Of a stretch of 64,000 nucleotides of DNA, positions 29,554 through 60,036 are shown piece after piece. Below the pieces are notes generated by a model that saw nothing but the letters and a program-made list of their open reading frames with translations, was not told the origin of the DNA and made no database searches. How positions within the stretch are numbered: position 1 is the stretch's first letter; each line of letters starts with the position of its first letter. Source of the DNA: Selaginella tamariscina (lineage: Eukaryota > Streptophyta > Lycopodiopsida > Selaginellales > Selaginellaceae); NCBI GenBank assembly GCA_003024785.1, contig PUQB01000140.1:171590-235589 (forward strand), given 5' to 3'. The translations under genes and the position numbers were made by a program.

Positions 29554-29639
29554 CCCTAATGTTGCAATAGGGTCTTCATCCTACCCTATTGATGTAAGTG
29601 TCAAGCCACAATCCAGAAACAAGAAAGAGAGCAGGATTC

Positions 29640-38347: not shown

Positions 38348-38590
38348 GATACGTGAAAATGGGAATATAAATAAATTACTATTAATACTTAAGTTTTAAT
38401 TATTAATTAATCATTTAATTAATATGTAATTAAGCCTTAAATATTAATTAATTAATTAATTAATCATTCAATAACCTTACTTAGTAAGGAATATTCCTAA
38501 ACTATCTTAGAATATTCATATTATTCTAAAATAGTTTACAATAATGAAGAAATATTATCAAACATAATTACAAATGAAATCATTTCCTTA

Positions 38591-39938
38591 TCAACATGTT
38601 AATTTATTTATAAATACTTTCTTCCTAACCATACAGAGAAATCTCCTCATTTTGTCTAAATCATCACTCTCCGGATTAATCAAATCATTTTGGTTAATAT
38701 CTTGATGTTGTTGCCACCACCTAACACTCTTACGAATGCAATTGGGAGTTGCCATCCTTGTAATACATAAGATGTAATAAGACCAGGTCTGCATAAAGGC
38801 TCATCTAAGAATGACGTTCCTTAAGAATAATATTATAAAGCGCCCGGTTGCTATCCTTCATTTTATAAAATTCAAAATCACGAAAAAGAAAAGCTTCAGG
38901 AAATGTTTGATACGGTGGATACTGCTTCACAAAAATTTTCGAGATTCTTCTTTCTGAGGCACGTATCCAAGTAGTTTCACTAGCTCATCCATATATTAGT
39001 ATCAGAATATGGATCGAAAGTGATTGGATGAATACAAGCAATGTTTTGGTTGAGCATAGCCTTCTGAGGAGAGTTGTCTACTACTAAGATATGTGCATTC
39101 TCATTATCCTTAAGCGACTGATCTCTCCATGAGTCCCAATTATTCTTTCATTCTTGAAGAAGTATGGCTTGCTTTCCTTTCCTATATTGTGAAATTCGAA
39201 GGTTTATAAACATTCGTTGGTCAAAAATCCAATCTTTACGAATCACTTCTTCTGCAACACTACAATGTTTCTTAAGCAAATTCAACAGCGGTGTTAAGTT
39301 ATGAATCTGTATGCATGACCAAATCCCCACAAGCGCACCCATCTCCTTAAGCTTTTGAAAGAGACGATCCAACCCTGGACGAAAAATAATATCATATCGA
39401 AATTTACCATGACAAGGAATGAAATCTCCTTGTTTGATTTGTTTTTCTATCATCGAGCCTTTGTCGATGAAGCAGAACACCATTAACATCCAACAACACA
39501 ATATGGCCATGAGTAACATGAGATAGCGTTGCCTCTTGAATACTTTGCAAACCACTTGTTTGCTCCCTTTCACATTTATCCGTTTGCCACTATCTCGTTG
39601 CCTATCCCTTCATCATTTAATTGTACATCATCCTTACAAGATTCAGATATTGCATGCGCTGAAGAAATTGATTTCGGAACTGAAGCCAATAAAAATGATG
39701 ATGAAAAACTGAAGTGGCCCCCATGGTAACGATGTTTTGAGCTGCATTATTATCCATTTCCTGCATGAACTCTGTCATTCTGACATGTGGCACAAGAAAT
39801 TGTCGCCAAACCCCTCTCTTACCTCATGCAATGCTGAAAATCCATGTTCTCAATTGTTTCATTACATCTGCAAAATGATAATTAGCTGACCTTAAAATTA
39901 TCAAGGTATATTATTTACCTTGTTAATGTGTGACCCAT
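38591..39938 (-). pseudogene. HAD-superfamily NIF/FCP1-like phosphatase gene, copy 1
   Basis: NIF/FCP1-type phosphatases use a DxDx(T/V) aspartate to dephosphorylate proteins. Here the minus strand reads HIVLLDVNGVLLHR at about 39,515-39,470 (DVNGV in place of DxDGT; several plant relatives have DxNG), then FRPGLDRLFQKLKEMGALVG and IWSC at about 39,390-39,320, and an ILVVDNSPQKAML-type motif near 39,090-39,050. The model starts at ATG 39,938 (20-nt exon to 39,919), exon 2 is 39,867-39,823, and exon 3 begins at 39,779, all with good splice sites. Several frame changes in exon 3 and near 39,150 mean it is decayed or contains errors. Its 3' 1.1 kb forms the left inverted repeat. It lies about 90 bp downstream of the ParB/MTase-like gene on the same strand. 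Confidence 0.7.
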
Positions 39939-40023
39939 GTTTGAACTAAAAGCTTCATTAATCCTTGAGAATTTATTTTCTGTACAAATATAAAGAAATA
40001 TACAAAAATGCCTTATGTTACAC

Positions 40024-43000
40024 TCATTTACAACTATTCGTCACTCTAAAATTCATTAACAATTCTTCTTCGCTATTACCTTCTGAGTGAGGCGAAGAAG
40101 GTCTAAGCCGCTTGTGAGATGGTTCAAGATCTTCTGCATCTTCTATTGATGTTTCCATGGGTCTGGAGTGTGCGAATGTTCTGTACTCCTCGAGATAACT
40201 TCCGGTCTAATATCTGATTGAAGTTCGTTCTCAGACTCCGACATTGAACCAGATTCACCTTCAGAGCTATCGCACTTATCTGGAGGGAACTTTCTCAAAT
40301 ACTCCTTTATGGATTCGTTGGGGTACTCAGTTGAGAACCTATCTATCCACTTGTTCAGGTCCTCAACCATGGTCTTATCCTTTTCAACGGCAAACACACA
40401 TGTATGCCGAAGGTAACACTCCTTCAAGACGGACCCCCTAGTGCAGTAGTCAAAAACCCACGCATCACTGTGAGGACCCCTGATCAAGTTGACGATGCTC
40501 CGTGCCGCTTGACTTGTATGTTTGGATAACGTACATTGCCGAATACGTCACTCACCTATCGGTGTATCGGATGGAGGTTCAGGGCCGTTGGAGTGCAAAC
40601 AGATGCCTGGCCAGTCATTTGGAAGCTTGAAATTGTTTGGCGCATTCCTAACAACCAAGTGAACAACGTATCAATGCACTTGGGATTAGCATCGTTCATA
40701 TAAAATCCTGTCCAACGATGTCTATTCTTCTTGGCGAAGGCGAAGGCAAAAGTATCGGTGACATGAGCAAGAATCAAGAAATAAATACCTGAAAAAGTAG
40801 GTATCAGTGAAGAGCGCAAGCATGAATTCAATAATAAATACCTTCTATGTATATGCTTGCACGGCTAAGTTTCTCCACCAGATCCTCTAGTGCCCTATCT
40901 GTCGAAAGATTTTTTGACACCCGCCGATCCATCACGAACAATTGAAACGGTTTCCTACAAGCAGTGATGTTACCCCATAAAGTCTCCGAATCTAACAACA
41001 AACATCTGTAGGGCTTGTCGTGATTCGTAGCATCCTCCTTTATAAGGTTCAATTCGGTTCTCCGCTGCTGAAGGACTGCCATAAGAGAAGGCGTCATCCC
41101 AATGTTCTCCTTTTTGGCGTTGGCGTGCAATAGATTCTTGCCTAGATCTTCCGATTGGTTCACCCATTCGACAAGCATATCATCGTTCGTCACATGCAAA
41201 TATTTGCTGACCTCTTCATATGTTGAAGTCGAGGTCCAACCCAGTTTGTGGCAGTGTATTCCCAACCACTCCTTGAAATGCCTGACCGTCTTCAACTCCA
41301 TTGCCTTGAGATGAAAAGGAGAGGTTGGGCTGCTGTTATTAATTTGTAGTTTGCCATCGATCACCAAATCAGCCAAGACTTCCATCTCCTCCATCGTTGT
41401 TCCATTTAAAGGCTTCAACCATGTGAGCTTGAAATCGTTGTCTACATCCTTTGTAGATTGAACAGACTTAGCCTTCGGCGTCTTACTGGGTTTCTTTGCA
41501 GACTTTTCTGAGGGCTCCCCTTCACTTGTCTGCTTCTTCTTCAGTGTTCCTTTTGAAAAGGATTCCATAATCCCCAACCATTTGGCAAAGATCCTATCTT
41601 CGGGGCAAGAAATCAACATCATCAGAAAGGATGTTTCCTTCCCGCCCACCTGGGCAAAATCAACTGCTGCAATTTCTTCAACTCTCTGAGGAAAAAAGAC
41701 AGATTAATATACCGGCGAGATAAATCCCGCCCAAACAATTTGCTTACCCGGTATTCCGCAGATTGTGTATTCCCTGCGGTAGCTCTTTGTGGTCGCTGAA
41801 GAGATTCCCACACGGCTCGCGTGTGTTTAAACTTCTCCCATATTTTGCTGTTGTAGTGGTTGGTGTCGGCAGCGTCCCATTCCGCCGATAACTTATGGTA
41901 CTGCTCGATTGTGAGATTCGGCTTAGCTAAAAACGCCGATCTTTTTGTCAGCTTCTCACGGGTATGCTCGGAAAGTTTTGTTGCCATCGTTCCTTTGTTG
42001 TGTTCATCGAGAAGTCGTTGGGCTGCCGTTATTGTGTGCTGGCCACTAATGATGTAGTACTTGATAGATTTTATTCTCCGTCTGAATCTTCATGAGTTGT
42101 TCTGGTGTTGTGATCCAGACTTTGTCAGCGCCCTTCCTTCTTTCATAGTATGGACACAAAACAGCATTATGTGGAACGGTATAAGAATTGTCGTCCTTCA
42201 TCTTCTCCATGAGCTCAGCTACACGTTCCTGGTTGAGTGGCCTGTAATTGAAGTTTGGGTTGACGCTGCAATATTTAACCCTACAAGGATAAATCTTATC
42301 ATCCAACATCATTTCCTTGTGACTTATTGCAGCATGAGATGCCACAGGTGCAGCTGACAAAACGATTGATGATTTTCTTTTGCGATCCGAATCAACATGT
42401 GTGATCCCCGACTGCAGCTGTTCTAGTGTTCTCGGCACACTCTTCCAGCTCCCGAAGCTTCCTAAGCAAATTGAACGTGATCTGTAGAGAACCTGAGACC
42501 GAGCCACCTCTCAATCTCCCTTATGATGTCGCTGTGTTCTTCTTCAATGTGAAGAGGGAAGATTGCTTCCACTTGCTGATTTTCTGTATTGTGAAGCAAT
42601 ATCTCCTGACAATACACCTACTCGATGAGTCTGAAGATCTTCGAAGTAGACATCCAGATGGATCCCCTCCATAGATGGGCTTTCGTTGAGTTGAAGAAGA
42701 ACTCCAAGGTCAACATCATTAGTGAACACGTGAACGTCATTATCCACAAGTCGACAAAACCACCCGAATTAATGTTGTAACTGACGACCTCTGGATCCGA
42801 GAACGTGACATTGGATGGAACAAGGCATATCTGTCGAGAATCGTCCAATCTGGGTTCGCAGCCTGCTTTCGGTGCTTGACTAGCGAATCTACTTTCCATT
42901 GTTTTGCTTGTCCATGAGATGTGACAGAGGTTAATTTGACAGCAACCATGGTTGCCCAATGCGCTTCCCATTTATCTTAAAATATGGCCAAGTTGATTCC

Positions 43001-43182
43001 AGAATCCCCCTGCCCATCTCTTCTCCTGCTCTTGTCTTTAATGTCACCTTCAATTCCACATCTGAATACAAAAATGATAGTTCAAGTATCCGAGTATAAC
43101 AGATTTATTTTAATTCTTACCCAGAATTTGACGACGACTCCATACTAATGACTCGATCTCCTTGTTTGATCAAATCGTCCTT
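40024..43182 (-). CDS. ParB-like domain + DNA methyltransferase-like protein, copy 1
   Basis: Exons by splice sites: 43182-43121, 43061-41748, 41685-40842, 40788 to about 40,024. Order: an N-terminal transposon-associated domain (MGRGILESTWPYFKINGKRI), a basic region, then a ParB/sulfiredoxin-like fold at about 42,300-41,980 with NPNFNYRPLNQERVAELMEK and, across a poly-A slip, YYIISGQHTITAAQRLL (the GxH motif of ParB-like domains). A Lys/Ser-rich linker leads to a region ordered like a beta-class amino-methyltransferase: CRKPFQLFVMDR where DPPY is expected, then SDAWVFDYCTRGSVLKECYL and CVFAVEKD resembling motif I (D-x-F-x-G-x-G ... E-x-D). Catalytic residues are not conserved, so activity is doubtful. 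An acidic Ser/Glu-rich tail ends it. ParB-methyltransferase fusions are known from phages and bacteria. Several one-base breaks differ between this copy and copy 2, so it may be intact in reality. Confidence 0.7.
41714..41731. repeat. Palindrome variant inside a ParB/MTase-like gene intron
   Basis: GGCGAGATAAATCCCGCC, two mismatches from the 18-bp consensus palindrome, lies in the 62-bp intron between exons 2 and 3 (41,686-41,747). Its equivalent in unit 2 is at 51,458-51,475. Confidence 0.85.
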
Positions 43183-43284
43183 CTGCAAAATAATACACTA
43201 TAATACAAATCATATAAAAACGCACACACACTTGTATAAACCCGAATATACAAAAATAATACACAGAGAGAAGTAGACGTAATT

Positions 43285-43371
43285 AACTGTCCGAAGCTCA
43301 CATTTGTGTTAGTGCAAAAGAAAGATAACATTTCGTTTTAGAACCACCACAAATGTGAGCTCTGGACAGTT
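43285..43371. repeat. Long hairpin (about 23-bp arms) upstream of ParB/MTase exon 1
   Basis: AACTGTCCGAAGCTCACATT + TGTG at 43,285-43,308 is complementary to 43,348-43,371 with one small internal mismatch and a 39-nt loop. It is preserved in unit 2 (about 53,028-53,115). It could be a miniature inverted-repeat element or a structured transcript. Confidence 0.8.
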
Positions 43372-43485
43372 TTACATAGATTCCTAGCTTTTACTCGAAA
43401 TATTATGATAAGATGATAAAAGTAAATAAAATGAGATATGCAACTTATATATACTAATACACATATATATTCACATGGAAGGTGC

Positions 43486-45000
43486 GGCGGGATTAATCTC
43501 GCCACCCCTTCAATGCCTCCTGAAAGAGTGGGCGGGATTAATCTCGCCACCTTTCTGGAGGCCTTGAACGGGAGTGCGGAATTAATCTTGCCACCCTTCT
43601 CGGTCTCAGAGAGAACTGGGCAGGATTTATTTCTCACACCCCTTCAGTGACTCCAGAAAGGAGGCGGGATTAATCTCGCCCACCATGTAAGGGATGGTTA
43701 AATGAATTTCCCCACCCTTCCCAATTCTCTCCATTGGTATGTTGTAAACCTTCTACGTCTCAGACAGAAACGTTTGGGATTGGTCCGACTCACCAATGGA
43801 GAAAAAAGGAAGGGTGGCGGGATTCATTCCTCCAACAGGCATTGAAGACTCGGCGGGATTAATCCCGCCGCCCAGGGCCTTCACTCGGTCCCTATGCGGC
43901 GGGATTAATCCCGCCGGACGCCAATTCCCTGCGCGGAATCGGGCGGGATTAATCCCGCCGCCTAGGCACTTCAGAGGCCAATGGCGGCGGGATAATCCCG
44001 CCCGATTCCGCAGGGAATTGGCGTCGCGCGGGATTAATCCCGCCTCCCAGGCCCTTCACTCGGGCCTTAGTCGGCGGGATTAATCCCGCCGACGCCACCT
44101 TTCTCGTTCTCAGAGAAATTGGGCAGGATTTAATCTCACACCCTTCAGGGGCTCCGAAAAGGCGGCGGGATTAATCCCGCCCCATGTAAGGGATGGTGAA
44201 ATTAATCCCACCACCCTTCTCAGTTCCCTCCATTGGTATTTTGTAAACCTTCTCCGTCTCAGAACAGAGTTAGTCGGGATTGATTCAACATACCAATGGA
44301 GGAAAAAAGAAGGTGGCGGGATTAATCCGCCACCGGGCAATGAAGGTTCGGAGAGACTAATCCCGCCGCCCTCTCGTAAATCATGCGCTCACACATATAT
44401 ATTGGCTGCGGCATTTTGAACAGGGATGGGTGGGGGCGGGATTAATCCCGCCGCTTATATCCTGCGGAAGTGCCTGAGCGGCGGGATTAATCCCGCCGCC
44501 CTCCGCGAAGGGCATGAGCGTGGGGCGGATTAATCCCGCCGTTCATGTCCTGCGTGAATTCCCTGGGCGGCGGGATTAATCCCGCCGCTTACGCGCAGGA
44601 CATGTCATGCAGGCTCTTCGGTTAGCCTTCCGTGCAGGATCTTTCATGCAGGCTCTTCGGTTAGCCTCATGAGCGGCGGGATTAATCCCGCCGCCCATCC
44701 CCTGTAAATGCCCTGCGCGGAATCCGCCGGGATTAATCCCGCCCATTAGGGCCTTCACACAGGCCATTGCCGGCGAGATAAATCCCGCCGCATTCCGCGC
44801 AGGGCATGGTGGCGGCGGGATTAATCCCGCCGCCGAGGCCCCTCACGCAGGCCATGGGCGGCGGGATTAATCCCGCCGCTCTTCGTTTGTCTAGAGCGGG
44901 GGATTAATCCCGCCGCCCATAGCCTGCGTGAAGGGCCTCGGCGGCGGGATTAATCCCGCCGCCATGGCCCCAACCATATAGCGGCGGGATTAATCCCGCC
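43486..45000. repeat. Palindrome cluster A: 13 perfect 18-bp copies and variants
   Basis: Perfect GGCGGGATTAATCCCGCC starts at 43852, 43898, 43942, 44073, 44164, 44435, 44480, 44569, 44675, 44814, 44860, 44943 and 44983. Variants with one or two changes start at about 43486, 43531, 43663, 43816, 43986, 44027, 44315, 44524, 44726, 44772 and 44896. Most centre-to-centre steps are 40-47 bp or about double that. Spacers are unrelated to the palindrome, GC-rich, and often inverted repeats of each other. An 80-bp spacer motif (CTCCATTGGTAT...) is duplicated near 43,727 and 44,227. Confidence 0.97.
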
Positions 45001-45049
45001 GCTCGAGGGCTTAGCGTGTGTGCGAGAGAAAAATTAATAAATAAAAAAA

Positions 45050-45075
45050 TTATTACAGATAAAAACACACATATA

Positions 45076-45130
<55 letters not shown>

Positions 45131-45492
45131 GTATGTATAGGAGTGTACGTGTGTGTGCAAGAGATAGATAATAAATAAAATTATACAGTACTGGTACACA
45201 TAATATATGTGTGTACATAGGTATATATATGTGTGTATATGTATATCGTGTGTATCGTGTGAGCGAAACAAATAAAATCATACAGATAAACAAACACACA
45301 CACACACATATATATACACAAGAGTGTGTGTGTGTGCGAAAGATAAAACTAATAAATAAATAAAATTATACAGATAAACACACACATATATATGTGTGTA
45401 TATAGATATATAACCCATAGAGAAAGAGAGAGAGTCTGTGAATATATAAGCATATATATAAACTAGTGTGTATACTATTTGTTAATATGCAT

Positions 45493-45533
<41 letters not shown>

Positions 45534-46215
45534 AAGCAGTGTGCGTGTGTGGGAGAGATAGATCAAAAAAAAATTATATAGATACTGGTACACATAATAT
45601 ATGTATGTATATATGTATATAGGTATATATATATGTGTATATGTATATGTGTGTATGCGTGTGTGAGCGAAACAAATAAAATCATACAGATAAACAAACA
45701 CACACACACACATATATATACACAGGAGTGTGCGTGTGTGTGAGAGATAAAACTAATAATAAATAAAATTATACAGATAAACACACACATATATATGTGT
45801 GAATATAGATATATAACCATATGAATATATAAGCATATATATAAACTAGTGTTGTATACTATTTGTTAATATGCATTGATTATAATATATATATATATAT
45901 TATATATATATATATAATATATATATGTGTGTGTGTGTGTAAGCAGTGTGCGTGTGTGTGGGAGAGATAGATCAATAAAAAAAAATTTATAGATACTGGT
46001 ACACATATATTGTATTTTATATATGTATAAGGTATATTATATATGTGTATATGTATATCGTGTGTATGCGTCATACAGATAAACAAACACACACCCCACA
46101 CAATATATATACACAAGGGTGCGTGTGTGTGCGAGAGATAGAATCAATAAATAAAATTATACGCACACTCCTATACATATATACTACATAACATATACAC
46201 ACACACACACACACA
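45050..46215. repeat. About 400-bp tandem units of TA/CA microsatellite
   Basis: The landmark ACTGGTACACATA recurs near 45,190, 45,583 and 45,993, and ATACAGATAAACAAACACAC near 45,281, 45,687 and 46,073, so a unit of about 400 bp is present about three times. Frames across it encode only Tyr/Ile/His/Thr repeats. Confidence 0.85.
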
Positions 46216-46227
46216 CACAGATCTCAC

Positions 46228-46300
46228 CTGTGTGCACAGCCGCCGCCGCCGATTTCACAGCTGCCGCCTCTTGAAACCCTAAGAATTACTAAATCCTAAA
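46228..46300 (-). other. Inferred first (noncoding) exon of ParB/MTase-like gene
   Basis: A GC-rich patch with a strong minus-strand splice donor (CACAG/GTGAGATCT at 46,228/46,227) and a telo-box-like CCCTAAG stands out from microsatellites on one side and AT-rich DNA on the other. It lies upstream of exon 1's acceptor at 43,182. If joined to it, the roughly 3-kb intron would contain all of cluster A. Inference only; unit 2 lacks it. Confidence 0.35.
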
Positions 46301-46600
46301 GGAATTAAATATATATTAACCCTAATAGAATATTCCTTTCTGAGAATATACTTAAACTCTTAAAAATAAAAAATATAGAATTCGCCTTAAAACGAATATT
46401 CTTTTATTATATTATTAGTGTGTGCGTGGCGTGGGTGTATCACATACACCCCAAAAATATAATGCAGGGATTTAACATGTGTGTGTCCATGAGAGTGTTA
46501 AAGTTTCAGTGTATCAATACATACATACACATGCATATATTAATACACATCATATATACATACACACGTGTATACACAAGACTTACATACATATTACATG

Positions 46601-47228
46601 GGTTTAGGGTTTAGGGTTTAGGTTTTTGGATTTAGGATGGATCATGCATGGTGTNGGGTTTAGGGTTTAGGGTTTTGGATTTAGGATGGATCATGCATGG
46701 TGTGTATGTATGAGAGAAGAGAGAGTGTTGAAAAATTATTTTTGTACACATTGCATATATTAGTACACATATATACTTACACATATTATACACAGATATA
46801 CATACATAGTATATGAGAGAAGAGAGACAGTACATATTATGGATCATTCATGGTGTGTATTATACACACAGACATACATACATATTAGTACATAATATTT
46901 GAAAGACCGAGTACATATTATAGATCATGCATGGTGTGTATGTTTGAGAGAAGAGACACAGTACATATTAACATGGATCATGCATGGTGTGTATGTATGA
47001 GAGAAGACAGAAAGTAACATATATACATACAAGTACACATATATACATACACACGTGTATACACACAGACATACATACATATTACATGAGTAAATTCATT
47101 GTGTTACATATTAGGGTTTAGGGTTTAGGGTTTAGGATGGATCATGCATGGTGTGAAGAGAGAGTGTTGAAAAATTATTTTTGTACACACATGTATACAC
47201 AGGGTTTAGGGTTTAGGGTTTAGGGTTT
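46601..47228. promoter_or_regulatory. Telomere-like repeats, CATGCATG motifs and GA stretches, unit 1
   Basis: TTTAGGG-type repeats at 46,601-46,624, 46,656-46,673, 47,111-47,135 and 47,202-47,228; perfect CATGCATG at 46,643, 46,692, 46,926, 46,979 and 47,143; each is followed within about 30 bp by GAGAGAAGA-like runs. It sits between the two divergent genes. Telo-box, RY (CATGCA) and GA motifs are known Polycomb-recruiting elements in Arabidopsis. An ambiguous base (n) lies at 46,655. Confidence 0.6.
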
Positions 47229-47459
47229 GCTCCCAACAAGCTTAATATAAATATTACACATGTAAATTCAATGTGTTACATACACACAGATTAAGTACAT
47301 ATATCATACATGCGTTGAACATGATGTTTCAATAAAGAAGCAACATATTTCTTCAGTTTGGTTTAGGGTTGTGCATGTGTGTGCATATGTGTTTTTGTAA
47401 GTTCTTGTAATGCGTGTGTAAATTTATGATTGTGTTTATATATGTGTGCAAAACAAACA

Positions 47460-48200
47460 TCGAATAATTAAGAAAATAATATTAATAAACACACTATGAA
47501 CATATTTTAAATTATACATAATAATATTAATATATAGCCATATATAGTTTTAATAATATATATTAATTTAATATTGATAAAAAGGTTTAACATTGAAATA
47601 TTCTTGAAATAATAAGAAATTAATTGAGAAAATCCCATTAATATATACAAATGTAAATTAAGTACTCAAATAATTAACTAAATTAATTATCATAATCATG
47701 TTTAATATTGGAATATTCTTGGAATAATAAGAAAATAATAAAGAATATCCCATTAATATAAAGAAGATTAATTACTCAAGTAATTAAGGAAATGATATTA
47801 ATATACACACTATGAACATATTTTAAATTATACATAATAATACATCATTTTATCTAATATATAGTCATATATAGTTTTAATAATATATATTAATTTAATA
47901 TTGATAATAAGGTTTAACACAGGAATATTCTTGAAATAATAACAAATTAATTGAGAAAATCCCATTAATATATACAAATGTAGAATAATTACTGCAATAA
48001 TTAAGAACAAGACTAATTTAATTATGATAATCAGGTTTAATATTAGAATATTCTTCAAATATTAATAAAATAATAAAGAATATCCCATTGATACTAGGAA
48101 ATGAAAATTAAATACTCGAGTAATTAAGAAAATAATAATAATAAACAGACTATGAATATATTTTAAATGATACATAATAATATATCAATTTATTTATTGT
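47460..48200. repeat. About 330-bp AT-rich tandem repeat, unit 1
   Basis: The block CACTATGAACATATTTTAAA ... AATCCCATTAATATATAC recurs with a step of about 330 bp (47,490, 47,811, and a third start near 48,147). Unit 2 carries the same at 54,255-54,985. No coding content. Confidence 0.75.
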
Positions 48201-48529
48201 ATAAGTATATATTATATATATATATATAATATAAATATACTTGAATACTAAGAATGTAGAATATAGTCTAAAATTTCGTAATATTAAACAGCTTGAATCA
48301 CTTGAATAACATTAAATGCAATTTTAAAATACTCATTGGAACTGGAGAGTATATATGTCAGAGTGTCGGATATTTGTGTCAACTCATCTTAAATTTTATT
48401 TCCTGTTCTTTTTAAAAAATTTGAATTTCTGACATATGTATTATCGGTCTGACATGTAAATTTGAAAATGCATTTAATTTCCCACTCAAATTCAGATCTG
48501 GTTATTTTCTCCGGCAAGGGTTTCTTCAT

Positions 48530-48647
48530 TTTTGTATTTTTCACTCTTTAGATCTTCTTTTTTCTTCATAGTGATCATCTCAGGAGCGAGATTAAATTGG
48601 GTGCTATTCTTTATAAGAAAGCATGGCGCCTTCAGTGCTGTTTACAA
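48530..48647 (+). other. Orphan first exon of the DUF7869 gene, unit 1 copy
   Basis: A CT-rich leader-like stretch ends at a strong donor (TTTACAA/GTAAGTATT at 48,647/48,648), identical to the site at 55,417 in unit 2. In this copy the duplication junction at 48,981 cuts it off from its gene. The 5' limit is uncertain. Confidence 0.4.
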
Positions 48648-48815
48648 GTAAGTATTATAAACAAATTTAAAAATATTATAAAGATTCACTCTCTTACATT
48701 CTCTCTTAAAATTACAATTTAGGGGTTTAGGAATGCATTAGGATTATAATATATTCCGTTAGGGATTTATCCCGTTTAAATATCCTTTTAACTTAATATC
48801 TAGGTTAACCGGGGC

Positions 48816-48937
48816 GGCGGGATTAATCCGGCCATTTCTTTTTCGCCTCTTCGAAGAGGTGGCGGGATTAATCCCGCCACCATCTCTCGGGCAATGCTTC
48901 TCCGCCACTGAAAAAGAGTGGCGAGATTAATCCCGCC
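48816..48937. repeat. Short palindrome cluster at the unit 1/2 boundary
   Basis: One perfect copy at 48,861-48,878 and two variants at 48,816 (GGCCGGATTAATCCCGCC on the minus strand) and 48,920 (GGCGAGATTAATCCCGCC). It corresponds to 55,588-55,709 of cluster C and is truncated by the duplication junction. Confidence 0.95.
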
Positions 48938-48981
48938 GATAACCTTCTCAACTGATGAAGAGTTACCAGAATTTATTAGAT

Positions 48982-49678
48982 CTTTACGAATCACCTCTTC
49001 TGCAACACTACAATGTTTCTTAAGTAAATTCAACAGCGGTGTTAAGTTATGAATCTGCATGCATGACCAAATCCCCACAAGCGCACCCATCTCCTTAAGC
49101 TTTTGAAAGAGACGATCCAACCCTGGACGAAAAATAATATCATATCGAAATTTACCATGACAAGGAATGAAATCTCCTTGTTTGATTTCTTTTTTCTATC
49201 CTGGGCCTTTGTCGATGAAGCAGAACACCATTGACATCCAACAACACAATATGGCCATGAGTAACATGAGATAGCGTTGCCTCTTGAATACTTTGCAAAT
49301 CACTTGTTTGCTCCCTTTCACATTTATCCGTTGCCACTATCTCGTTGCCTATCCCTTCATCATTTAATTGTACATCATCCTTACAAGATTCAGATATTGC
49401 ATGCGCTGAAGAAATTGATTTCGGAACTGAAGCCAATAAAAATGATGATGAAGTGGCCCCCATGGTAACGATGTTTTGAGCTGCATTATTATCCATTTCC
49501 TGCATGAACTCTGTCATTCTGACATGTGGCACAAGAAATTGTCGCCAAACCCCTCTCTTACCTCATGCCAATGCTGAAAATCCATGTTCTCAATTATTTC
49601 ATTACATCTGCAAAATGATAATTAGCTGACCTTAAAATTATCAAGGTATATTATTTACCTTGTTAATGTGTGACCCAT
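48982..49678 (-). pseudogene. HAD/NIF phosphatase-like gene, copy 2, 3'-truncated
   Basis: Same gene as at 38,591-39,938, starting at ATG 49,678 and cut at 48,982 by the duplication junction. Here the N-terminal 120 codons read cleanly from near 49,520 through SHVTHGHIVLLDVNGVLLHR before frame is lost. The WSC segment (MGALVGIWSCMQIHNLTPLL) remains; the last HAD motif is gone. Confidence 0.7.
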
Positions 49679-49789
49679 GTTTGAACTAAAAGCTTCATTA
49701 ATCCTTGAGAATTTATTTTCTGTACAAATATAAAAGAAATATACAAAAATGCCTTATGTTACACTCATTTACAACTATTCATCACTCTA

Positions 49790-52700
49790 TCAATTCATTA
49801 TCAATTCTTCTTCGCTATTACCTTCTGAGTGAGGCGAAGAAGGTCTAAGCCGCTTGTGAGATGGTTCAAGATCTTCTGCATCTTCTATTGATGTTTCCAT
49901 GGGTCCTGGAGTGTGCGAATGTTCTGTACTCCTCGAGATAACTTCCGGTCTAATATCTGATTGAAGTTCGTTCTCAGACTCCGAGATTGAACCAGATTCA
50001 CCTTCAGAGCTATCGCACTTATCTGGAGGGAACTTTCTCAAATACGCCTTTATGGATTCGTTGGGGTACTCAGTTGAGACCCAATCTATCCACTTGTTCA
50101 GGTCCTCAACCATGGTCTTATCCTTTTCAACGGCAAACACACATGTATGCCGAAGGTAACACTCCTTCAAGACGGACCCCCTAGTGCAGTAGTCAAAAAC
50201 CCACGCATCACTGTGAGGACCCCTATCAAGTTGACGATGCTCCGTGCCGCTTGACTTGTAATGTTTGGATAACGTACATTGCCGAATACGTCACTCATAC
50301 CTATCGGTGTATCGGATGGAGGTTCAGGGCCGTTGGAGTGCAAACAGATGCCTGGCCAGTCATTTGGAAGCTTGAAATTGTTTGGCGCATTCCTAACAAC
50401 CAAGTGAACAACGGTATCAATGCACTTGGGATTAGCATCGTTCATATAAAATCCTGTCCAACGATGTCTATTCTTCTTGGCGAAGGCGAAGGCAAAAGTA
50501 TCGGTGACATGAGCAAGAATCAAGAAATAAATACCTGAAAAAGTAGGTATCAGTGAAGAGCGCAAGCATGAATTCAATAATAAATACCTTCTATGTATAT
50601 GCTTGCACGGCTAAGTTTCTCCACCAGATCCTCTAGTGCCCTATCTGTCGAAAGATTTTTTGACACCCCCGATCCATCACGAACAATTGAAACGGTTTCC
50701 TACAAGCAGTGATGTTACCCCATAAAGTCTCCGAATCTAACAACAAACATCTGTAGGGCTTGTCGTGATTCGTAGCATCCTCCTTTATAAGGTTCAATTC
50801 GGTTCTCCGCTGCTGAAGGACTGCCATAAGAGAAGGCGTCATCCCAATGTTCTCCTTTTTGGCGTTGGCGTGCAATAGATTCTTGCCTAGATCTTCCGAT
50901 TGGTTCACCCATTCGACAAGCATATCATCGTTCGTCACATGCAAATATTTGCTGACCTCTTCATATGTTGAAGTCGAGGTCCAACCCAGTTTGTGGCAGT
51001 GTATTCCCAACCACTCCTTGAAATGCCTGACCGTCTTCAACTCCATTGCCTTGAGATGAAAAGGAGAGGTTGGGCTGCTGTTATTAATTTGTAGTTTGCC
51101 ATCGATCACCAAATCAGCCAAGACTTCCATCTCCTCCATCGTTGTTCCATTTAAAGGCTTCAACCATGTGAGCTTGAAATCGTTGTCTACATCCTTTGTA
51201 GATTGAACAGACTTAGCCTTCGGCGTCTTACTGGGTTTCTTTGCAGACTTTTCTGAGGGCTCCCCTTCACTTGTCTGCTTCTTCTTCAGTGTTCCTTTTG
51301 AAAAGGATTCCATAATCCCCAACCATTTGGCAAAGATCCTATCTTCGGGGCAAGAAATCAACATCATCAGAAAGGATGTTTCCTTCCCGCCCACCTGGGC
51401 AAAATCAACTGCTGCAATTTCTTCAACTCTCTGAGGAAAAAGACAGATTAATATACCGGCGAGATAAATCCCGCCCAAACAATTTGCTTACCCGGTATTC
51501 CGCAGATTGTGTATTCCCTGCGGTAGCTCTTTGTGGTCGCTGAAGAGATTCCCACACGGCTCGCGTGTGTTTAAACTTCTCCCATATTTTGCTGTTGTAG
51601 TGGTTGGTGTCGGCAGCGTCCCATTCCGCCGATAACTTATGGTACTGCTCGATTGTGAGATTCGGCTTAGCTAAAAACGCCGATCTTTTTGTCAGCTTCT
51701 CACGGGTATGCTCGGAAAGTTTTGTTGCCATCGTTCCTTTGTTGTGTTCCTCGAGAAGTCGTTGGGCTGCCGTTATTGTGTGCTGGCCACTAATGATGTA
51801 GTACTTGATAGATTTTTATTCTCCGTCTGAATCTTCATGAGTTGTTCTGGTGTTGTGATCCAGACTTTGTCAGCGCCCTTCCTTCTTTCATAGTATGGAC
51901 ACAAAACAGCATTATGTGGAACGGTATAAGAATTGTCGTCCTTCATCTTCTCCATGAGCTCAGCTACACGTTCCTGGTTGAGTGGCCTGTAATTGAAGTT
52001 TGGGTTGACGCTGCAATATTTAACCCTACAAGGATAAATCTTATCATCCAACATCATTTCCTTGTGACTTATTGCAGCATGAGATGCCACAGGTGCAGCT
52101 GACAAAACGATTGATGATTTTCTTTTGCGATCCGAATCAACATGTGTGATCCCCGACTGCAGCTGTTCTAGTGTTCTCGGTACACTCTTCCAGCTCCCAA
52201 AGCTTCCTAAGCAAATTGAACGTGATCTGTAGAGAACCTGAGACCGAGCCACCCTCTCAATCTCCATTATGATGTCGCTGTGTTCTTCTTCAATGTGAAG
52301 AGGGAAGATTGCTTCACTTGCTTGATTTTCTGTATTGTGAAGCAAATATCTCCTGACAATACACCTACTCGATGAGTCTGAAGATTTTCGAAGTAGACAT
52401 CCAGATGGATCCCCTCCATAGATGGGCTTTCGTTGAGTTGAAGAAGAACTCCAAGGTCAACATCATTAGTGAACACGTGAACGTCATTATCCACAAGTCG
52501 ACAAAACCACCCGATTAATGTTGTAACTGACGACCTCTGGATCCGAGAACGTGACATTGGATGGAACAAGGCATATGTGTCGAATCGTCCAATCTGGGTT
52601 CGCAGCCTGCTTTCGGGTGCTTGACTAGCGAATCTACTTTCCATTGTTTTGCTTGTCCATGAGATGTGACAGAGGTTAATTTGACAGCACCATGGTTGCT

Positions 52701-52928
52701 CCAATGCGCTTCCCATTTATCTTAAAATATGGCCAAGTTGATTCCAGAATCCCCCTGCCCATCTCTTCTCCTGCTCTTGTCTTTAATGTCACCTCAATTC
52801 CACATCTGAATACAAAAATGATTAGTTCAAGTATCCGAGTATAACAGATTTTATTTTAATTCTTACCCAGAATTTGACGACGACTCCATACTAATGACTC
52901 GATCTCCTTGTTTGATCAAATCGTCCTT
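49790..52928 (-). CDS. ParB-like domain + DNA methyltransferase-like protein, copy 2
   Basis: Exons 52928-52867, 52805-51492, 51430-50588, 50534-49790. Same domains as copy 1. Some breaks of copy 1 are absent here: the segment YALFHPMSRSRIQRSSVTTL to NDVHVFTNDVDLGVLLQL is one frame, as is the C-terminal tail to its stop at 49,790. Others are specific to this copy: four C at 50,220-50,223 where copy 1 is in frame, and a lost T near the N-terminus. One break is shared: four C at 52,411-52,414, 42,664-42,667 in copy 1. The poly-A run before the GxH motif is five here and four in copy 1, whereas six would keep frame. The inferred upstream exon and cluster A are deleted, so expression of this copy is doubtful. 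Confidence 0.7.
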
Positions 52929-53027
52929 CTGCAAAATAATACACTATATAAATTATATAAAAACGCACACACACTTGTATAAACCCGAATATACAAAAAT
53001 AATACACAGAGAGAAGTAGACGTAATT

Positions 53028-53115
53028 AACTGTCCGAAGCTCACATTTGTGTTAGTGCAAAAGAAAGATAACATTTCGTTTTAGAACCACCACAAATGTG
53101 AGCTCTGGACAGTTT
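53028..53115. repeat. Long hairpin, unit 2 copy
   Basis: Same inverted repeat as 43,285-43,371: arms around AGCTCACATTTGTG and CACAAATGTGAGCT, with matching outer ACTGTCC/GGACAGT. Confidence 0.8.
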
Positions 53116-53229
53116 TACATAGATTCCTAGCTTTTACTCGAAATATATATGATAAGATGATAAAAGTAAATAAAATGAGATATGCAACTTATATATACTA
53201 ATACACATATATATTCACATGGAAGGTGC

Positions 53230-53423
53230 GGCGGGATTAATCTCGCCACCCTTCAATGCCTCCTGAAAGAGTGGGCGGGATTAATCTCGCCACCTTTCTG
53301 GAGGCCTTGAACGGGAGTGCGGAATTAATCTTGCCACCCTTCTCGGTCTCAGAGAGAACTGGGCAGGATTTATTTCTCACACCCCTTCAGTGACTCCAGA
53401 AAGGAGGCGGGATTAATCTCGCC
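53230..53423. repeat. Palindrome cluster B (variant copies)
   Basis: Variants GGCGGGATTAATCTCGCC at 53,230, 53,274 and 53,406, identical in sequence and order to 43,486, 43,531 and 43,663 of unit 1. The deletion junction at 53,465 follows immediately. Confidence 0.95.
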
Positions 53424-53480
53424 CACCATGTAAGGGATGGTTAATGAATCTCGCCACCCTTCCCCGTTACATATTACATG

Positions 53481-53950
53481 GGTTTAGGGTTTAGGGTTTA
53501 GGGTTTTGGATTTAGGATGGATCATGCATGGTGTGATGTATGAGAGAAGAGAGAGTGTTGAAAAATTATTTTTGTACACATTGCATATATTAGTACACAT
53601 ATATTTACACATATTATACACAGATATATACATAGTATATGAGAGAAGAGAGACAGTACATATTATGGATCATTCATGGTGTGTATTATACACACAGACA
53701 TACATACATATTAGTACATAATATTTGAAGACCGAGTACATATTATAGATCATGCATGGTGTGTATGTTTGAGAGAAGACACAGTACATATTAACATGGA
53801 TCATGCATGGTGTGTATGTTATGAGAGAAGACAGAAGTACACATATATACATACACATGTATACACACAGACATACATACATATTACATGAGTAAATTCA
53901 TTGTGTTACTTTAGGGTTTAGGGTTTAGGGTTTAGATGGATCATGCATGG
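53481..53950. promoter_or_regulatory. Telomere-like repeats, CATGCATG motifs and GA stretches, unit 2
   Basis: TTTAGGG-type repeats at 53,481-53,505 and 53,911-53,934; CATGCATG at 53,523, 53,751, 53,802 and 53,942; GAGAGAAGA runs after them. Because of the deletion it lies about 550 bp upstream of the ParB gene's first kept exon. Confidence 0.6.
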
Positions 53951-55290
53951 TGTGAAGAGAGAGTGTTAAAAAATTATTTTTGTTACACACATGTATACAC
54001 AGGGTTTTAAGGGTTTGCTCCCAACAAGCTTAATATAAATATTACACATGTAAATTCAATGTGTTACATACACACAGATTAAGTACATATATCATACATG
54101 GTTGAACTGATATTTTCAATAAAGAAGCATGAGAAGGGTTGTGCATGTGTGTGCATATGTGTTTTTGTAAGTTCTTGTAATGGTGTGTAAATTTATGATT
54201 GTGTTTATATATGTGTGCAAAACAAACATCGAATAATTAAGAAAATAATATTAATAAACACACTATGAACATATTTTAAATTATACATAATAATATATGA
54301 TTTTATCTAATATATAGCCATATATAGTTTTAATAATATATATTAATTTAATATTGATAAAAAGGTTTAACATTGAAATATTCTTGAAATAATAAGAAAT
54401 TAATTGAGAAAATCCCATTAATATATACAAATGTAAATTAAGTACTCAAATAATTAACTAAATTAATTATCATAATCATGTTTAATATTGGAATATTCTT
54501 GGAATAATAAGAAAATAATAAAGAATATCCCATTAATATAAAGAAGATTAATTACTCAAGTAATTAAGGAAATGATATTAATATATATAACATATTTTAA
54601 ATTATACATAATAATACATCATTTTATTAATATATAGTCATATATAGTTTAATAATATATATTAATTTAATATTGATAATAAGGTTTAACACATGAATAT
54701 TCTTGAAATAATAACAAATTAATTGAGAAAATCCCATTAATATATACAAATGTAGAATAATTACTGCAATAATTAAGAACAAGACTAATTTAATTATGAT
54801 AATCAGGTTTAATATTAGAATATTCTTCAAATATTAATAAAATAATAAAGAATATCCCATTGATACTAGGAAATGAAAATAAATACTCGAGTAATTAAGA
54901 AAATAATAATAATAAACAGACTATGAATATATTTTAAATGATACATAATAATATATCAATTTATTTATTGTATAAGTATATATTTATATATATAATATAA
55001 TATAAATATACTTGAATACTAAGAATGTAGAATATAGTCTAAAATTTCGTAATATTAAACAGCTTGAATCACTTGAATAACATTAAATGCAATTTTAAAA
55101 TACTCATTGGAACTGGAGAGTATATATGTCAGAGTGTCGGATATTTGTGTCAACTCATCTTAAATTTTATTTTCTGTTCTTTTTAAAAAATTTGAATTTC
55201 TGACATATGTATTGTCGGTCTGACATGTAAATTTGAAAATGCATTTAATTTCCCACTCAAATTCAGATCTGGTTCTTTCTCCGGCAAGGG
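53951..55290. other. AT-rich spacer between divergent genes, unit 2
   Basis: Equivalent to 47,150-48,520 of unit 1: AT-rich with about 330-bp tandem repeats (54,255-54,985). No gene seen. Confidence 0.7.
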
Positions 55291-55417
55291 TTTCTTCATT
55301 TCTGTATTTTTCACTCTTTAGATCTTCTTTTTTCTTCATAGTGATCATCTCAGGAGCGAGATTAAATTGGGTGCTATTCTTTATAGGAAAGCACGGCGCC
55401 TTCAGTGCTGTTTACAA
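55291..55417 (+). other. Inferred noncoding first exon of the DUF7869 gene
   Basis: CT-rich leader-like DNA ending at donor TTTACAA/GTAAGTATT (55,417/55,418). The next acceptor in the right place is TTATGTGCAG/GACAAT at 56,414/56,415, just before the transposase ATG. Frames joined across it contain a stop before the ATG, so it would be untranslated. The intron would contain cluster C. Inference from splice signals only. Confidence 0.45.
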
Positions 55418-55587
55418 GTAAGTATTATAAACAAATTTAAAAATACTTATAAAGATTCACTCTCTTACATTCTCTCTTAAAATTACAATTTAGGGGTTTA
55501 GGAATGCATTAGGATTATAATATATTCCGTTAGGGATTTATCCCGTTTAAATATCCTTTTAACTTAATATTCTAGGTTAACCGGGGC

Positions 55588-56266
55588 GGCGGGATTAATC
55601 CGGCCATTTCTTTTTCGCCTCTTCGAAGAGGTGGCGGGATTAATCCCGCCACCATCTCTCGGGCAATGCTTCTCCGCCACTGAAAAAGAGTGGCGGGATT
55701 AATCCCGCCGATAACCTTCTCAACTGATGAAGAGTTACCAGAATTTATTAGAAAGAGTTGTCGGCGGGATTAATCCCGCCAACCATTTTAGGAGGCAGGG
55801 AAGGGGTGGCGGGATTAATCTCGCCACCACATTCCCTGTTTTAAGGATTTGGGGACAGGATTTATCCCGAGATCTCTTTGAAATCATAGTTTTGGAGAGA
55901 GTTATGTGCGGGTTTAATCCCGCCACCCATTCCCCGTCGTAAGAATTGTGGGCGGGATTAATCCCGCCTTGGACTCTCCGACGGAAGAGCCGGCGGGATT
56001 AATCCCGCCGCTCTCTCCGGGGGAGTCCGGCGGGATTAATCCCGCCGACTCCTTCCTCGTCGGAGAGAGTCGGCGGGATTAATCCCGCCGGACTCCCCCG
56101 AGGAGGAAGAGGCGGCGGGATTAATCCCGCCGGCTCTTCCTTGTCGGAGGGAGTCCAAGGCGGGATTAATCCCGCCGACTCTCTCCGAAGGGGTTGAGTC
56201 GGCGGCGGGATTAATCCCGCCGACCGTTCCTCGTCGGAGGGATTCGTGGGCGGGATTAATCCCGCC
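55588..56266. repeat. Palindrome cluster C: 11 perfect copies upstream of transposase
   Basis: Perfect GGCGGGATTAATCCCGCC starts at 55633, 55692, 55763, 55951, 55992, 56029, 56072, 56114, 56159, 56204 and 56249; variants at 55588, 55808 and 55907. The last eight are spaced 41, 37, 43, 42, 45, 45 and 45 bp. Spacers there are themselves near-palindromic (GACTCCTTCCTCGTCGGAGA + GAGTC and relatives). The cluster ends 155 bp before the transposase start codon. Confidence 0.97.
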
Positions 56267-56414
56267 CATCAGTTGTATTAATCAAACATGAGATATTATC
56301 TCTAAACATAATTATGTATTATTGCATATGCATATTATTAAGTAACCGTAATTCAGATTTCTTAGAAATATTGCATAAACAGATATCATAAATAATACAA
56401 TTATTTATGTGCAG

Positions 56415-59400
56415 GACAATATGTTTAATACTGGAGATAAAGTATGTCTTCTTCGGAACAACGAGATAGTTGGCACTGGAACTGTGGAAGTTCGAGATAA
56501 TAATGCATCATGTCACAATATTGCCCAAGGATCTTGTGTGTACGTATGGGTGAACACCATTTACAAGCATGTTGAGGTTCTGGGAATGGAATTTGAGGAG
56601 GGTTCTCCTGTATTGTGGAATTTGGATGAAGTCAAGGCTGACACAGAATATGCAGAGTCACAAACAAATAGTAGCACGAGTTTACCAGATGATGGCTTGC
56701 CTGCTGTGATGGATGAGGTGATTCTCTTTCTTCGTGAGATTGAAGTCGGAAGAGGCATCATCACAGCTATAAATCCAATGGAAGCAGTGTCAGAAGAGAA
56801 ACTAGGGTCCGACTTCGTGGGTGTAGTTGTGACAGAGGTTTCACCTAATGGCACATTGTATCCTGGATCCCTCGTGAGGTGGCGAACATCTGAATTAAGA
56901 CGGCAAGATGGTTCAACATATTCTGGGTTGGATTTCAATAATAACAACCCGGAAGAACAACTCATATTTGAAGAGGTTCCTTGCATTGGTCCTATTGTAA
57001 GAAAAAGGCGATTCATGGGTTGTAGATCTTCCCCTGCAAGTTTCAGCAAGAGGGTAAAGATGGATCCTACATCTTCCGAAAGTGTTACGAGCATTTCCAC
57101 GATTGACTGTTGCAAGAAGAAGTGTTGTCAGATGGCAGACCGGAATGAAATTACCCAATGTAGACATGTCTTTCGTATGCTCACCCAAAAGCAAAGGCAT
57201 GAGTTTGTATATGCTGCACTAACTGGGTGTATTGATGGAATGGCCTCGGACACAGGTTATCAGAGTACATCCATGGTATTTAATAAGGTGGCCATCTGCT
57301 TCAAAGCTTGGTACAGTATATACGGGATCCCAAAGACCACGTTCTACCGTCGGAGGGATGAGTGGCTAGATGGAGCGCGAACCTCAGTTCATGGGAACAC
57401 TCGCTTGGTCAAAACCCGCTCTCACATCATGGCAGCCATAGAGATACTCAAGGCTTTTGTGGAAGCAAATGCAGACAGGATGCCTCACAAATGCCGAACC
57501 ACAAATGCAGGGGTCAGGGAAAATCTCAAGGTTTTGCCTTCAATCTACACTCAATTGAAACTGTGTGAACATGTGAACAAGTGCCTCAGTTTGATGGGGC
57601 TCCAAGCAATCTGCACTGGTACCTTCAACAACATATGGAATACTCATTTTAAGGATGTGGAGATTGCAAAACACTCTAGCTTTTCTAAGTGTGACACTTG
57701 TACATCATTGAAGGCTGCAGAGGCTTGTGCAAAAACCTTGGTGGAGATCACTACCATTCAAAGGAAGATGGAGGCCCACATGATTGCACAACAAACTTGC
57801 CGGTCTCAGTACTATGCACACCGCATGCTTTCTGTGTCACGCCCATCAGAGTACCTGTGCTTGATCCATGACAAGATGGATCATTCAAAGACCAGCATTC
57901 CAAAGCTCTTTGCAACACCAAAGTGCCTTGGAAATGTCATGAAACTTCCGATTTCATTGACAGGTGTGCTAACACATGGACACGGTTGTGAGTCATATGG
58001 ACACTTTTCACTTCCACATTGGTCTAGCGACTCCAATTTCACTATTGGGTCGTTAGCCATGTGTTTCAGAAACCTTGAAGCCCACTCACAGACAAGTCCT
58101 ATCAGTGATCTCAAAGTGAAGAAACAACACCTTCAACCTTTACATAATGCTCTCATGAACACGTCTGCACTTGAGGCTACTTGGGAATATGAGAGGCATT
58201 GTCAGCAACCTGCACAAAAAACAGATGGCCCTGTTGAGAGTTCAGGTTCAGTGGAGGGATCTAGCTCAAATAGTGTACATGTGTCCTCAACATCAAATAA
58301 GCTTCCTCGTCATTTGCTTTTACAGATGGATAATTGTGCAGGCGAGAACAAAAATAGGTAAATCATTTTACTTAAGGGTTTCTCAAGCTCATACTTACTT
58401 TTATTTTCTAGATATGTGCTAGCATACTTGTCAATGCTTGTTGCCAAAGGTGTGTTTGAAACAATCACGCTCAGTTTCCTTATGGTTGGTCACACTCATG
58501 AAGATATTGATGCGTTCTTCAGCAAGGTCTCCAACTCTACAAAAAGGACAAGTGCACTTACCTTACCGCATATGATGAATCTTTTTGAAAATTGCATCTC
58601 CAAAAAAAGTTGTGCTTTGCTTGTGACTGAGGTGCCAGACTTCAAAAAATTTCTCAAGGAGTATATAAAAGAAGGGAGTGATTCTTTAGTTGGTCACCTT
58701 GTGCCGCTACAATTCTTTTTCTCCATACGAGATGGTATACCTATTATGCAGTACAAGTTACGGCCATCAGAGCAGGAGTGGTTACCGAAAGAGGGCTTAA
58801 TGCTCTTCAAAAGTGGAGAGGATGGAAAGCCACTTCTCCCAGAAGGACAACCAGACCCTATTCCATTGAGTGCCCAGCTCAAGGAACAAGAGGTTATTAT
58901 TGATGGCATCAAAAAATATGTGGCATGGGTTCAAAAATCGATGCCAAAGAATTCTGATAAGGCAACTGGTTACTCAGAACTATATAAGCATGTGGTCACT
59001 ATTGGGAGACTGTTGTTCGAGAGTTGGAAGGGCCTACTGTCACAAGTACAGAATTGCAACACCCTTTCTGGCCTAAAACAAGGTGGCGAGAGGAGATTGA
59101 AATGACATCACTGAGCATAGACGACATAGAAGCCAGTAGTGATGTGGAAGTGCAAACCCCACACTTTGTTGGACAAAGGAACCAAAAACCTAAAGCATAC
59201 TTTTTGCTGCAGGATCTTCAAAAACTAATGATGGTTCTCATTACTCCAGATGCGTCATATAATCAGCCTATTTGGATGGGTCAAATTATCGACACACCTG
59301 AAGTAATCACAAAAAATAGTATTGTTAAGGTTGCATGGTTCAAACCACAAAAAAGGCGACACGAGAAGGAGAGCGAAAGATATAATGGATGCCTAGAGAA

Positions 59401-59536
59401 AACATGGTCTCCCAATCAAAAAGACCCAGCATGTTTTATAAATGTTAAATCCATTCGATATGGGTGGATGTCAAGAAGCGTTGATAAAGTCACGATTAAC
59501 AAAACTGCAAGGGAATGTATGTTTTCTGAAGCTTAA
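56415..59536 (+). CDS. DUF7869-type putative DDE transposase-like protein
   Basis: Exon 56,415-58,357 (ATG at 56,421, just after a good acceptor), intron 58,358-58,411 (GTAAAT...TTCTAG), exon 58,412-59,536; about 1,020 residues. Domains: two N-terminal repeats of a plant-transposon-associated domain (GDKVCLLRNNEIVGTGTVEV near residue 10; EVGRGIITAINPMEAVSEEK near 110), a nuclear-signal-like KRR with a Cys cluster (CCKKKCCQ, near 232), then an RNase-H-like core with acidic positions in DKMDHSKT (D484), QMDNCAGENKNRY (D637) and VGHTHEDIDAFFSK (E/D 676-679), the signature I associate with the DUF7869 family. The C-terminus has a chromo/PWWP-like strand pattern (PIWMGQIIDTPE). The core resembles a DDE nuclease; activity is inferred. 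One break at 59,030-59,032 (GGG) is explained by one missing G, otherwise the frame is open. This is the only nearly intact gene of the element and the best candidate for mobilising it. Confidence 0.8.
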
Positions 59537-60010
59537 AGCAATTACAAAATTATAAAATATCATATATTTAATATTCATAATTATTATAAACTCTTTAATA
59601 ATAGTACCAAATTGTATACTTAACTATATAAATTTAAAAAATGATATGGAAGATTGACTATATTATTATAGGATTTTATATATATTATTACTACTACAAA
59701 TTTTTAATTAATAATGTTATATTTAAATATTAATATTTTAATAACAACATCAATATTTATATAATGTACCTCTTATGCTCTTCCTTAATTGTTATATTAG
59801 GCAATATATTATATAATTTAATACTTCTACTTTTATAATGTTATTAATTTTTGTTCAATGAATGCTATAATTTATTAAAGGTAGAATACAAAATAGAATA
59901 TTCTAAAGAATATTCTCTTTTCAAATATATTTAAAGAATATTCCTTTAATATTAGAAAATGCTAATTAAATAGCTAAAATTGCTAATTATTAGGAAATGG
60001 GACTATAGCC
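59537..60010. other. AT-rich 3' flank of transposase
   Basis: AT-rich DNA between the transposase stop and the right terminal repeat. AGAATATTC-type motifs (59,895-59,945) resemble those in 38,500-38,540. No gene seen. Confidence 0.6.
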
Positions 60011-60036
60011 ATGCCCATTTTAGTTACAACTTGCAT
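60011..60036. repeat. Right terminal inverted repeat (inner copy)
   Basis: ATGCCCATTTTAGTTACAAC + TTGCAT, the inverse of 38,322-38,347 with two mismatches. Sequence changes abruptly at 60,037 to HAD-gene sequence. Confidence 0.75.

Follow-up and report, generated by a model that had tools for sequence, protein, structure and literature searches.

Arrays of an 18-bp palindrome before both main genes of a giant DNA transposon in Selaginella tamariscina: putative binding sites for an element-encoded protein

Why would a transposon carry dozens of copies of one palindrome in front of its genes, and which protein might recognize them? The question is raised by a 64-kb stretch of the Selaginella tamariscina genome, hereafter the window (contig 439:171590-235589 of an assembly of 300.7 Mb in 1,391 contigs), which contains a copy of a giant DNA transposon with a gene for a DUF7869 protein and a gene for a ParB-like protein. 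Both genes are preceded by arrays of an 18-mer, GGCGGGATTAATCCCGCC, that is its own reverse complement. An earlier interpretation made from the letters alone (the sequence-only reading) had noticed the palindromes and likened them to the parS sites bound by bacterial ParB proteins. It is proposed here, with a probability of about one half, that they are promoter-proximal arrays of putative binding sites for a dimeric protein encoded by the element itself, with a regulatory or anti-silencing role.

Palindrome arrays in a repeated DNA transposon

The 18-mer has 25 exact matches in the window, against an expectation from base composition of about 3e-8 for the 16 kb around the palindrome region. 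With up to three mismatches allowed there are 46 sites (shuffled mean 0.01), and with up to four there are 49, divided 25/12/6/3/3 over zero to four mismatches, all of them outside the inferred coding exons. They span 41.7-56.3 kb (first site at 41714, last one ending at 56266), and no site with up to three mismatches was found elsewhere in the 64-kb window; the half-motif GGCGGGATT likewise does not occur in the window outside the palindrome sites. The counts and coordinates given by the sequence-only reading (25 perfect and about 20 near-copies, none elsewhere) are therefore reproduced. Apart from two single intronic sites (41714 and 51458), the palindromes form groups of 26, 3, 4 and 14 (Table 1), in which 29 of 43 site distances are 35-46 bp and the remainder range from 31 to 153 bp. 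Three main sites had been described earlier, and such groups exist, but several are duplicates of one another (98.5% and 95% repeats) and look alike because the element is internally duplicated.

The suspected mobile element is a DNA-transposon copy with inverted end motifs, repeated in the genome. It measures 21,713 bp in the window, compared with 13,554-14,796 bp in six other both-ended copies, all on contig 1, the window copy having been enlarged to 21.7 kb by the internal duplication. Its DUF7869 exons match the Pfam family PF25273 (E 2.6e-12 and 4.5e-27; 47.2 and 95.3 bits, cut-off 26) and contain the motifs MDNCAGENKN and GHTHEDID, which by eye resemble those of DDE transposases; the DUF7869 protein is the likely transposase of the element.

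The arrangement of the palindromes is the same in all six contig-1 copies, two of which share identical flanks and may represent one duplicated insertion. Each copy holds 26-40 sites with up to three mismatches (7-25 of them perfect), in a constant order: a single site some 3.3-3.4 kb in from the left end, within an intron of the ParB-like gene; array A, with 11-25 sites, before the ParB-like gene; 3.0-3.6 kb free of sites; and array B, with 12-16 sites, stopping about 3.8 kb short of the right end and followed by the DUF7869 gene. The suspected tie between palindromes and element genes consequently takes the form of arrays before both main genes plus an intron site. In a set of 17 copies, made up of the window, the six contig-1 copies and ten from other contigs picked by transposase score, array B is present throughout, with 6-19 sites per copy. 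In 16 of the copies its last site precedes the DUF7869 open frame by 128-130 bp; in the remaining one it is at -152.

Across the genome, 27,128 exact matches to the palindrome were counted, while a reversed-pattern control gave no match. Co-localization with the element was examined in 100 listed places, all on contig 1 and all fetched. Element copies are present in nine of the eleven cluster stretches, as matches of several kb that are about 92-99% identical, and 96 of the 101 perfect palindromes in the fetched stretches lie inside these nine copies. Four more belong to an old derivative of the element, and the last one is found 12 kb beyond, where the only matches are of the array and microsatellite types. 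The figure of 96 is based on multi-kb matches outside the arrays in the nine stretches, and was preferred to a more lenient count with unmasked arrays (99 of 101 inside a match or at most 1.5 kb away). The genome-wide search suggested with the sequence-only reading therefore shows a palindrome that is very common, yet found on contig 1 almost entirely in element copies, and a scattered satellite unrelated to the genes is rejected on the same count. In prokaryotic and viral sequence, no pair of the full 18-mer was found in GTDB contigs, and in IMG/VR there was no pair of the inner 16 bases and one single match.

The family itself is abundant. The 30-mer of the right end occurs 1,166 times and is exact in four of seven copies, which suggests that right ends in the genome number on the order of 2,000. 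Of the matches to the 660-amino-acid DUF7869 exon, 23, counting the window's own, share the top score and are 100% identical, and no stop codon interrupts any of the 67 that were scored as the best among 7,372 candidates. Because identical, stop-free exons are so many, the sequences suggest that the element was amplified recently.

Constraint on the palindrome and the ParB-like candidate

The 41 non-duplicate sites of the window (up to four mismatches) differ from the consensus by a mean of 0.85 positions in 18, whereas the spacers are only 75% identical to their best partner (64% after shuffling), a difference that bears out the earlier suggestion of selection or recent amplification. At each position of the 18-mer, 82-100% of sites agree with the commonest base, compared with 29-63% for the 30 flanking bases on each side. 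Spacers turn over by gain and loss of units, and the core is kept in every unit. Substitutions in the core are also unevenly distributed: among 376 sites with up to three mismatches (197 perfect), G6, A7, T8 and G2 are rarely changed (7, 14, 3 and 17 times), compared with 59, 38, 48 and 67 changes at G1, C3, G4 and G5 and 23 at T9, a half-site pattern such as would be expected for a protein footprint. The commonest variant among these sites is GGCGGGATTAATCTCGCC (38 sites), in which the C of a CCG (CHG) context is altered, not a CpG. CpG observed/expected ratios of the spacers are 0.56 and 0.71, and the arrays are rich in CpG because the palindromes themselves supply it.

The ParB-like protein was compared with a profile of 16 phage ParB domains, for which its two copies in the window take the top two places among 1,508 six-frame stretches (9.4 and 9.1 bits; the third stretch reaches 3.3). 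An uninterrupted ParB-like domain on contig 612 scores 10.5 bits, compared with at most 6.5 in shuffled sequences, none of 1,000 of which reaches its score. Over the part that was read, the gene on contig 612 (C612) has open stretches of 291, 304 and at least 250 amino acids and is interrupted only at two intron-like gaps, and many of the further genomic ParB-like matches listed are free of stops in the matched part. Searches for relatives in phages and IMG/VR led nowhere, a PDB search returned two designed proteins only, and a PHROGs search one weak unnamed family. Altogether, the ParB-like domain identity is weakly supported. The protein named by the sequence-only reading survives as the best-ranked of the 1,508 stretches, but the likeness is weak and no ParB model was matched in Pfam searches of the exons scanned.

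Bacterial ParB-parS systems also combine a ParB-type N domain with palindromic sites, the former being weak here. A ParB-type N domain does not by itself imply parS binding, and the term parS-like is not supported: the bacterial parS consensus has two matches in the window against 2.01 expected, there is no Pfam ParB match, the arrays contain up to 26 sites, and no ParA partner was found among the proteins scanned. A parS identity of the sites is rejected on the lack of enrichment.

The methyltransferase-like region fares no better, since the likeness was seen by eye only and profile tests fail. The region is not among the best eight six-frame stretches, has no Pfam match, and is equalled in score by 30 of 100 shuffled sequences. 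The uninterrupted copy shows MDRR and DYCTRGS at the positions where the DPPY-type motif IV and the FxGxG motif I of a DNA N6A/N4C methyltransferase are expected, in an alignment made by eye, and this result is void if that alignment is wrong.

Putative function of the arrays and its rivals

The element can be described as two divergent units, the ParB-like gene on the minus strand and the DUF7869 gene on the plus strand, each of which would be served by its upstream array, with a further site in the ParB-like intron. Since dense sites of a dimer type stand upstream of both units and in this intron, they may be cis-regulatory arrays bound by dimers. An element-encoded binder would be likelier than a host factor, since the arrays sampled occur almost only in this family and the half-site never stands alone in the window. 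It is proposed that such a protein, with the ParB-like accessory protein as first candidate and the DUF7869 protein as second, could occupy the arrays densely and keep both promoters of each family member accessible or regulated, by which the element would recognize its own copies in trans.

Several results weigh against this proposal. A copy at G000:C626:49105-54084 (L049) has a transposase exon identical to that of the window and an array B of six degenerate sites, none perfect, so that some copies may do without an intact array. The core mismatch of 3.1% between copies is well below that of spacers (12.0%), but only slightly below that of adjoining non-coding DNA (3.9-4.1%), and the core columns in this comparison had been selected by similarity. 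The old rearranged derivative (G000:C1:2052000-2063500; L057, L055, L058) retains about 78% identity in its ParB-like region; AT microsatellites alternate there with the palindromes, and only four of 16 sites are perfect, as would be the case under neutral decay. The ParB-like gene appears frame-broken in all six contig-1 copies and in both window copies, so that its protein would have to act in trans. With regard to its domain, the missing Pfam match counts here as well; hhalign gave a score of 15.0 (at most 7.1 in 100 shuffles) with a probability of only 2.5%, and the gene did not stand out in a search with a profile built from nine full-length phage ParB-methyltransferase fusions (window rank 20 of 403).

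Non-functional amplification is a rival explanation that is judged unlikely. GC-rich palindromes may form hairpins or cruciforms, expand by slippage and inverted duplication, and hitch-hike in the transposon. The whole of array B constitutes a large inverted repeat with very strong foldback (DNA-fold z -26.9 for 55940-56270), the best partner of a non-duplicate spacer is inverted in 20 of 29 cases (two-sided binomial p 0.06), and the variable length of array B, the decay in the old derivative and the copy with an identical exon and no perfect array-B site would all follow. However, slippage would copy spacers too, and these are about 25% off their best partner while the core is about 5% off its consensus; moreover, the two arrays and the intron site hold their positions in 6/6 copies, in near-fixed phase to the gene start.

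It has also been considered, as a rather unlikely alternative, that a host transcription factor binds the sites, and that the element borrows host regulation for both promoters. E2F factors recognize GGCGGGA-type motifs and WUSCHEL/WOX factors TTAATCC-type motifs, and the half-sites resemble both (GGCGGGAA for E2F, TTAATSS for WOX) and stand upstream of both genes, as this explanation would have it. Against it, a search of the window for six strict E2F-type strings found TTTCCCGC once (10308), TTTGGCGC twice (40636 and 50381) and the other four not at all, none of the occurrences being in the arrays. Half-sites are never found alone in the window, and the near-confinement of the sampled palindromes to the element family also counts against a host factor.

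A stronger form of the proposal that an element protein binds the arrays, in which a ParB-type protein captured from prokaryotes would load at the ~27,000 palindromes, spread or clamp on the ~2,000 copies, mark them as self and hold both promoters open against host silencing, is regarded as distinctly doubtful.

Docking of the transposase, with arrays required for transposition like the subterminal repeats of CACTA elements, is improbable. Short repeated motifs in a DNA transposon and a likely transposase in the DUF7869 protein speak for it; the sites are internal, though, lying kilobases from both ends as described above, and the copy with an identical transposase exon has no perfect array-B site. 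In the six both-ended copies, no site with up to three mismatches falls within 3 kb of either end (other motifs were not searched), so that subterminal transposase sites are rejected. A repeated peptide (AGLIPP/GGINPA-like) conserved at the protein level would explain why several open frames of ~80-110 amino acids cross the arrays, but it is hardly credible and is rejected because many of the site distances cannot be divided by three (31, 35, 37, 40, 41, 43, 44, 46) and array length varies.

Among known systems, En/Spm (CACTA) elements would resemble the present element in being controlled by a protein of their own, but Spm sites are subterminal, whereas the palindromes here are internal and the ends (TGCACGTTGTAAC) are not CACTA termini. 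The passages on TnpA in PMC10398659 describe this Spm-encoded protein as activating Spm, in correlation with DNA demethylation, and an analogous activity is proposed here. The closest demonstrated mechanism to the proposed array binding would be that of VANC in Arabidopsis VANDAL elements. According to PMC5735166, VANC binds a short motif that has built up as tandem repeats in non-coding VANDAL sequence and causes loss of DNA methylation there; the repeats differ among related elements. The tandem repeats of a short non-coding motif are shared with the present arrays, but the VANC21 motif is a non-palindromic 9-mer (PMC5735166), and the exons scanned here match no corresponding protein family: in the part of the exons covered by the Pfam scan, no VANC or MULE family was found, DUF7869 and NIF were above cut-off, and everything else was sub-threshold.

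A close likeness in gene layout is Sola1-1_Ec32 of Ectocarpus, a giant DNA transposon with a ParB-like domain gene on the strand opposite the transposase (PMC12477816). In PMC12477816, its ParB-plus-methyltransferase protein, encoded opposite the Sola-1 transposase, is proposed to bind the very transposon that carries it and to modify it. Two differences are that a palindrome array is not mentioned in that account's main text and that a methyltransferase is predicted there and unsupported here. The novelty claimed by the sequence-only reading is accordingly reduced, since giant transposons with ParB-plus-methyltransferase proteins are already in print, whereas the arrays appear new among openly licensed papers. 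ParB-like accessory genes of giant algal transposons are thus known, with a target that is not named in the passages of PMC12477816. The palindrome arrays before both genes are what the target of such a protein could look like, and with them the self-binding proposed for ParB-like transposon proteins becomes directly testable. The family is numerous and many of its transposase exons are intact; it may provide a second case of a VANC-like motif array, with unusually many identical sites.

Coordinates of the element and neighbouring genes

Table 1. Features of the window, with positions counted from its first nucleotide.
Feature	Position	Strand	Details
Giant DNA transposon copy	38323..60035		end motif TGCACGTTGTAACTAAAGTGGGCATG at 38323, inverted at 60010-60035
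Internal duplication, first copy	39232..43722		partner 48980-53464, 98.5% identity
ParB-like gene, copy 1	40143..43143	-	reading frame broken
Inferred ParB-like intron, copy 1	41686..41747	-	same intron as in copy 2; palindrome 41714-41731
Array A	43486..45000		26 sites, upstream of ParB-like gene copy 1
AT-rich spacer between arrays	45001..48815		AGGGTTT-type repeats
Second duplicated block	46650..48980		partner 53481-55752, 95% identity
Truncated array B, left by duplication	48816..48937		3 sites
Captured NIF/FCP1-like phosphatase fragment	48982..49562	-	also 39148-39609 and 60229-60549
ParB-like gene, copy 2	49790..52889	-	domain ~51.6-52.05 kb, inferred ATG 52889; frame broken
Inferred phase-0 intron of ParB-like gene, copy 2	51431..51491	-	61 bp; holds palindrome 51458-51475; same stretch in another copy
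Array A start in second duplicate	53230..53423		4 sites, ~340 bp upstream of inferred ParB-like ATG
Array B	55588..56266		14 sites, 11 perfect; end ~155 bp before inferred DUF7869 ATG (56421)
DUF7869 protein, putative transposase	56421..59105	+	long open exon and one inferred in-frame intron 58358-58411
Inverted copy of the element's left end, outside the right end	60036..61138	-	92% identical

The inverted copy of the left end is probably a fragment of another element copy. AGGGTTT repeats, of the plant telomere type, lie inside the element at 46600-47228 and 53480-53935, and may have mediated the internal duplication, as the duplicated block (46650 = 53481) starts in or beside them. TAAA stands on either side of the window copy (38323-60035); across seven copies, two of which share flanks, no consistent target-site duplication was found, the best 4-bp result being 3/7 at a one-base offset. 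For Sola2, the relevant passage of PMC3627910 gives an AT-rich 4-bp target-site duplication.

The palindrome-bearing intron inferred for the ParB-like gene is 61-62 bp long and has GT..AG ends. With regard to the putative transposase, the N-terminal part (56421-57014, plus strand) has a sub-threshold match to Transposase_23 (TNP1/EN/SPM; 13.8 bits, cut-off 21), an AlphaFold model of the core computed without relatives has a pLDDT of 35.5, and a PDB search returned one match (E 0.59). Searches for DUF7869 relatives in IMG/VR and for DUF7869 in the literature led nowhere.

NIF/FCP1-type fragments are located near the left end of the element, where one comes after the methyltransferase-like region of the ParB-like gene, and in the inverted fragment beyond its right end. 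Joined together, the pieces match PF03031 (E 2.5e-10), and a single piece stays below the cut-off (17.0 against 21.8 bits).

Two further features lie outside the element. Exons at 2133-10435 (minus strand) look like those of an ATR-type kinase (UME domain, E 2.6e-15) with microsatellite-rich introns, the identity as ATR being our reading. This host gene sits about 28 kb from the element, and a PDB search with one of its exons led nowhere. A decayed Ty3-type retrotransposon occupies 29000-36000 (minus strand), in which DUF4939 matches above its cut-off and Ty3 capsid and integrase match below theirs.

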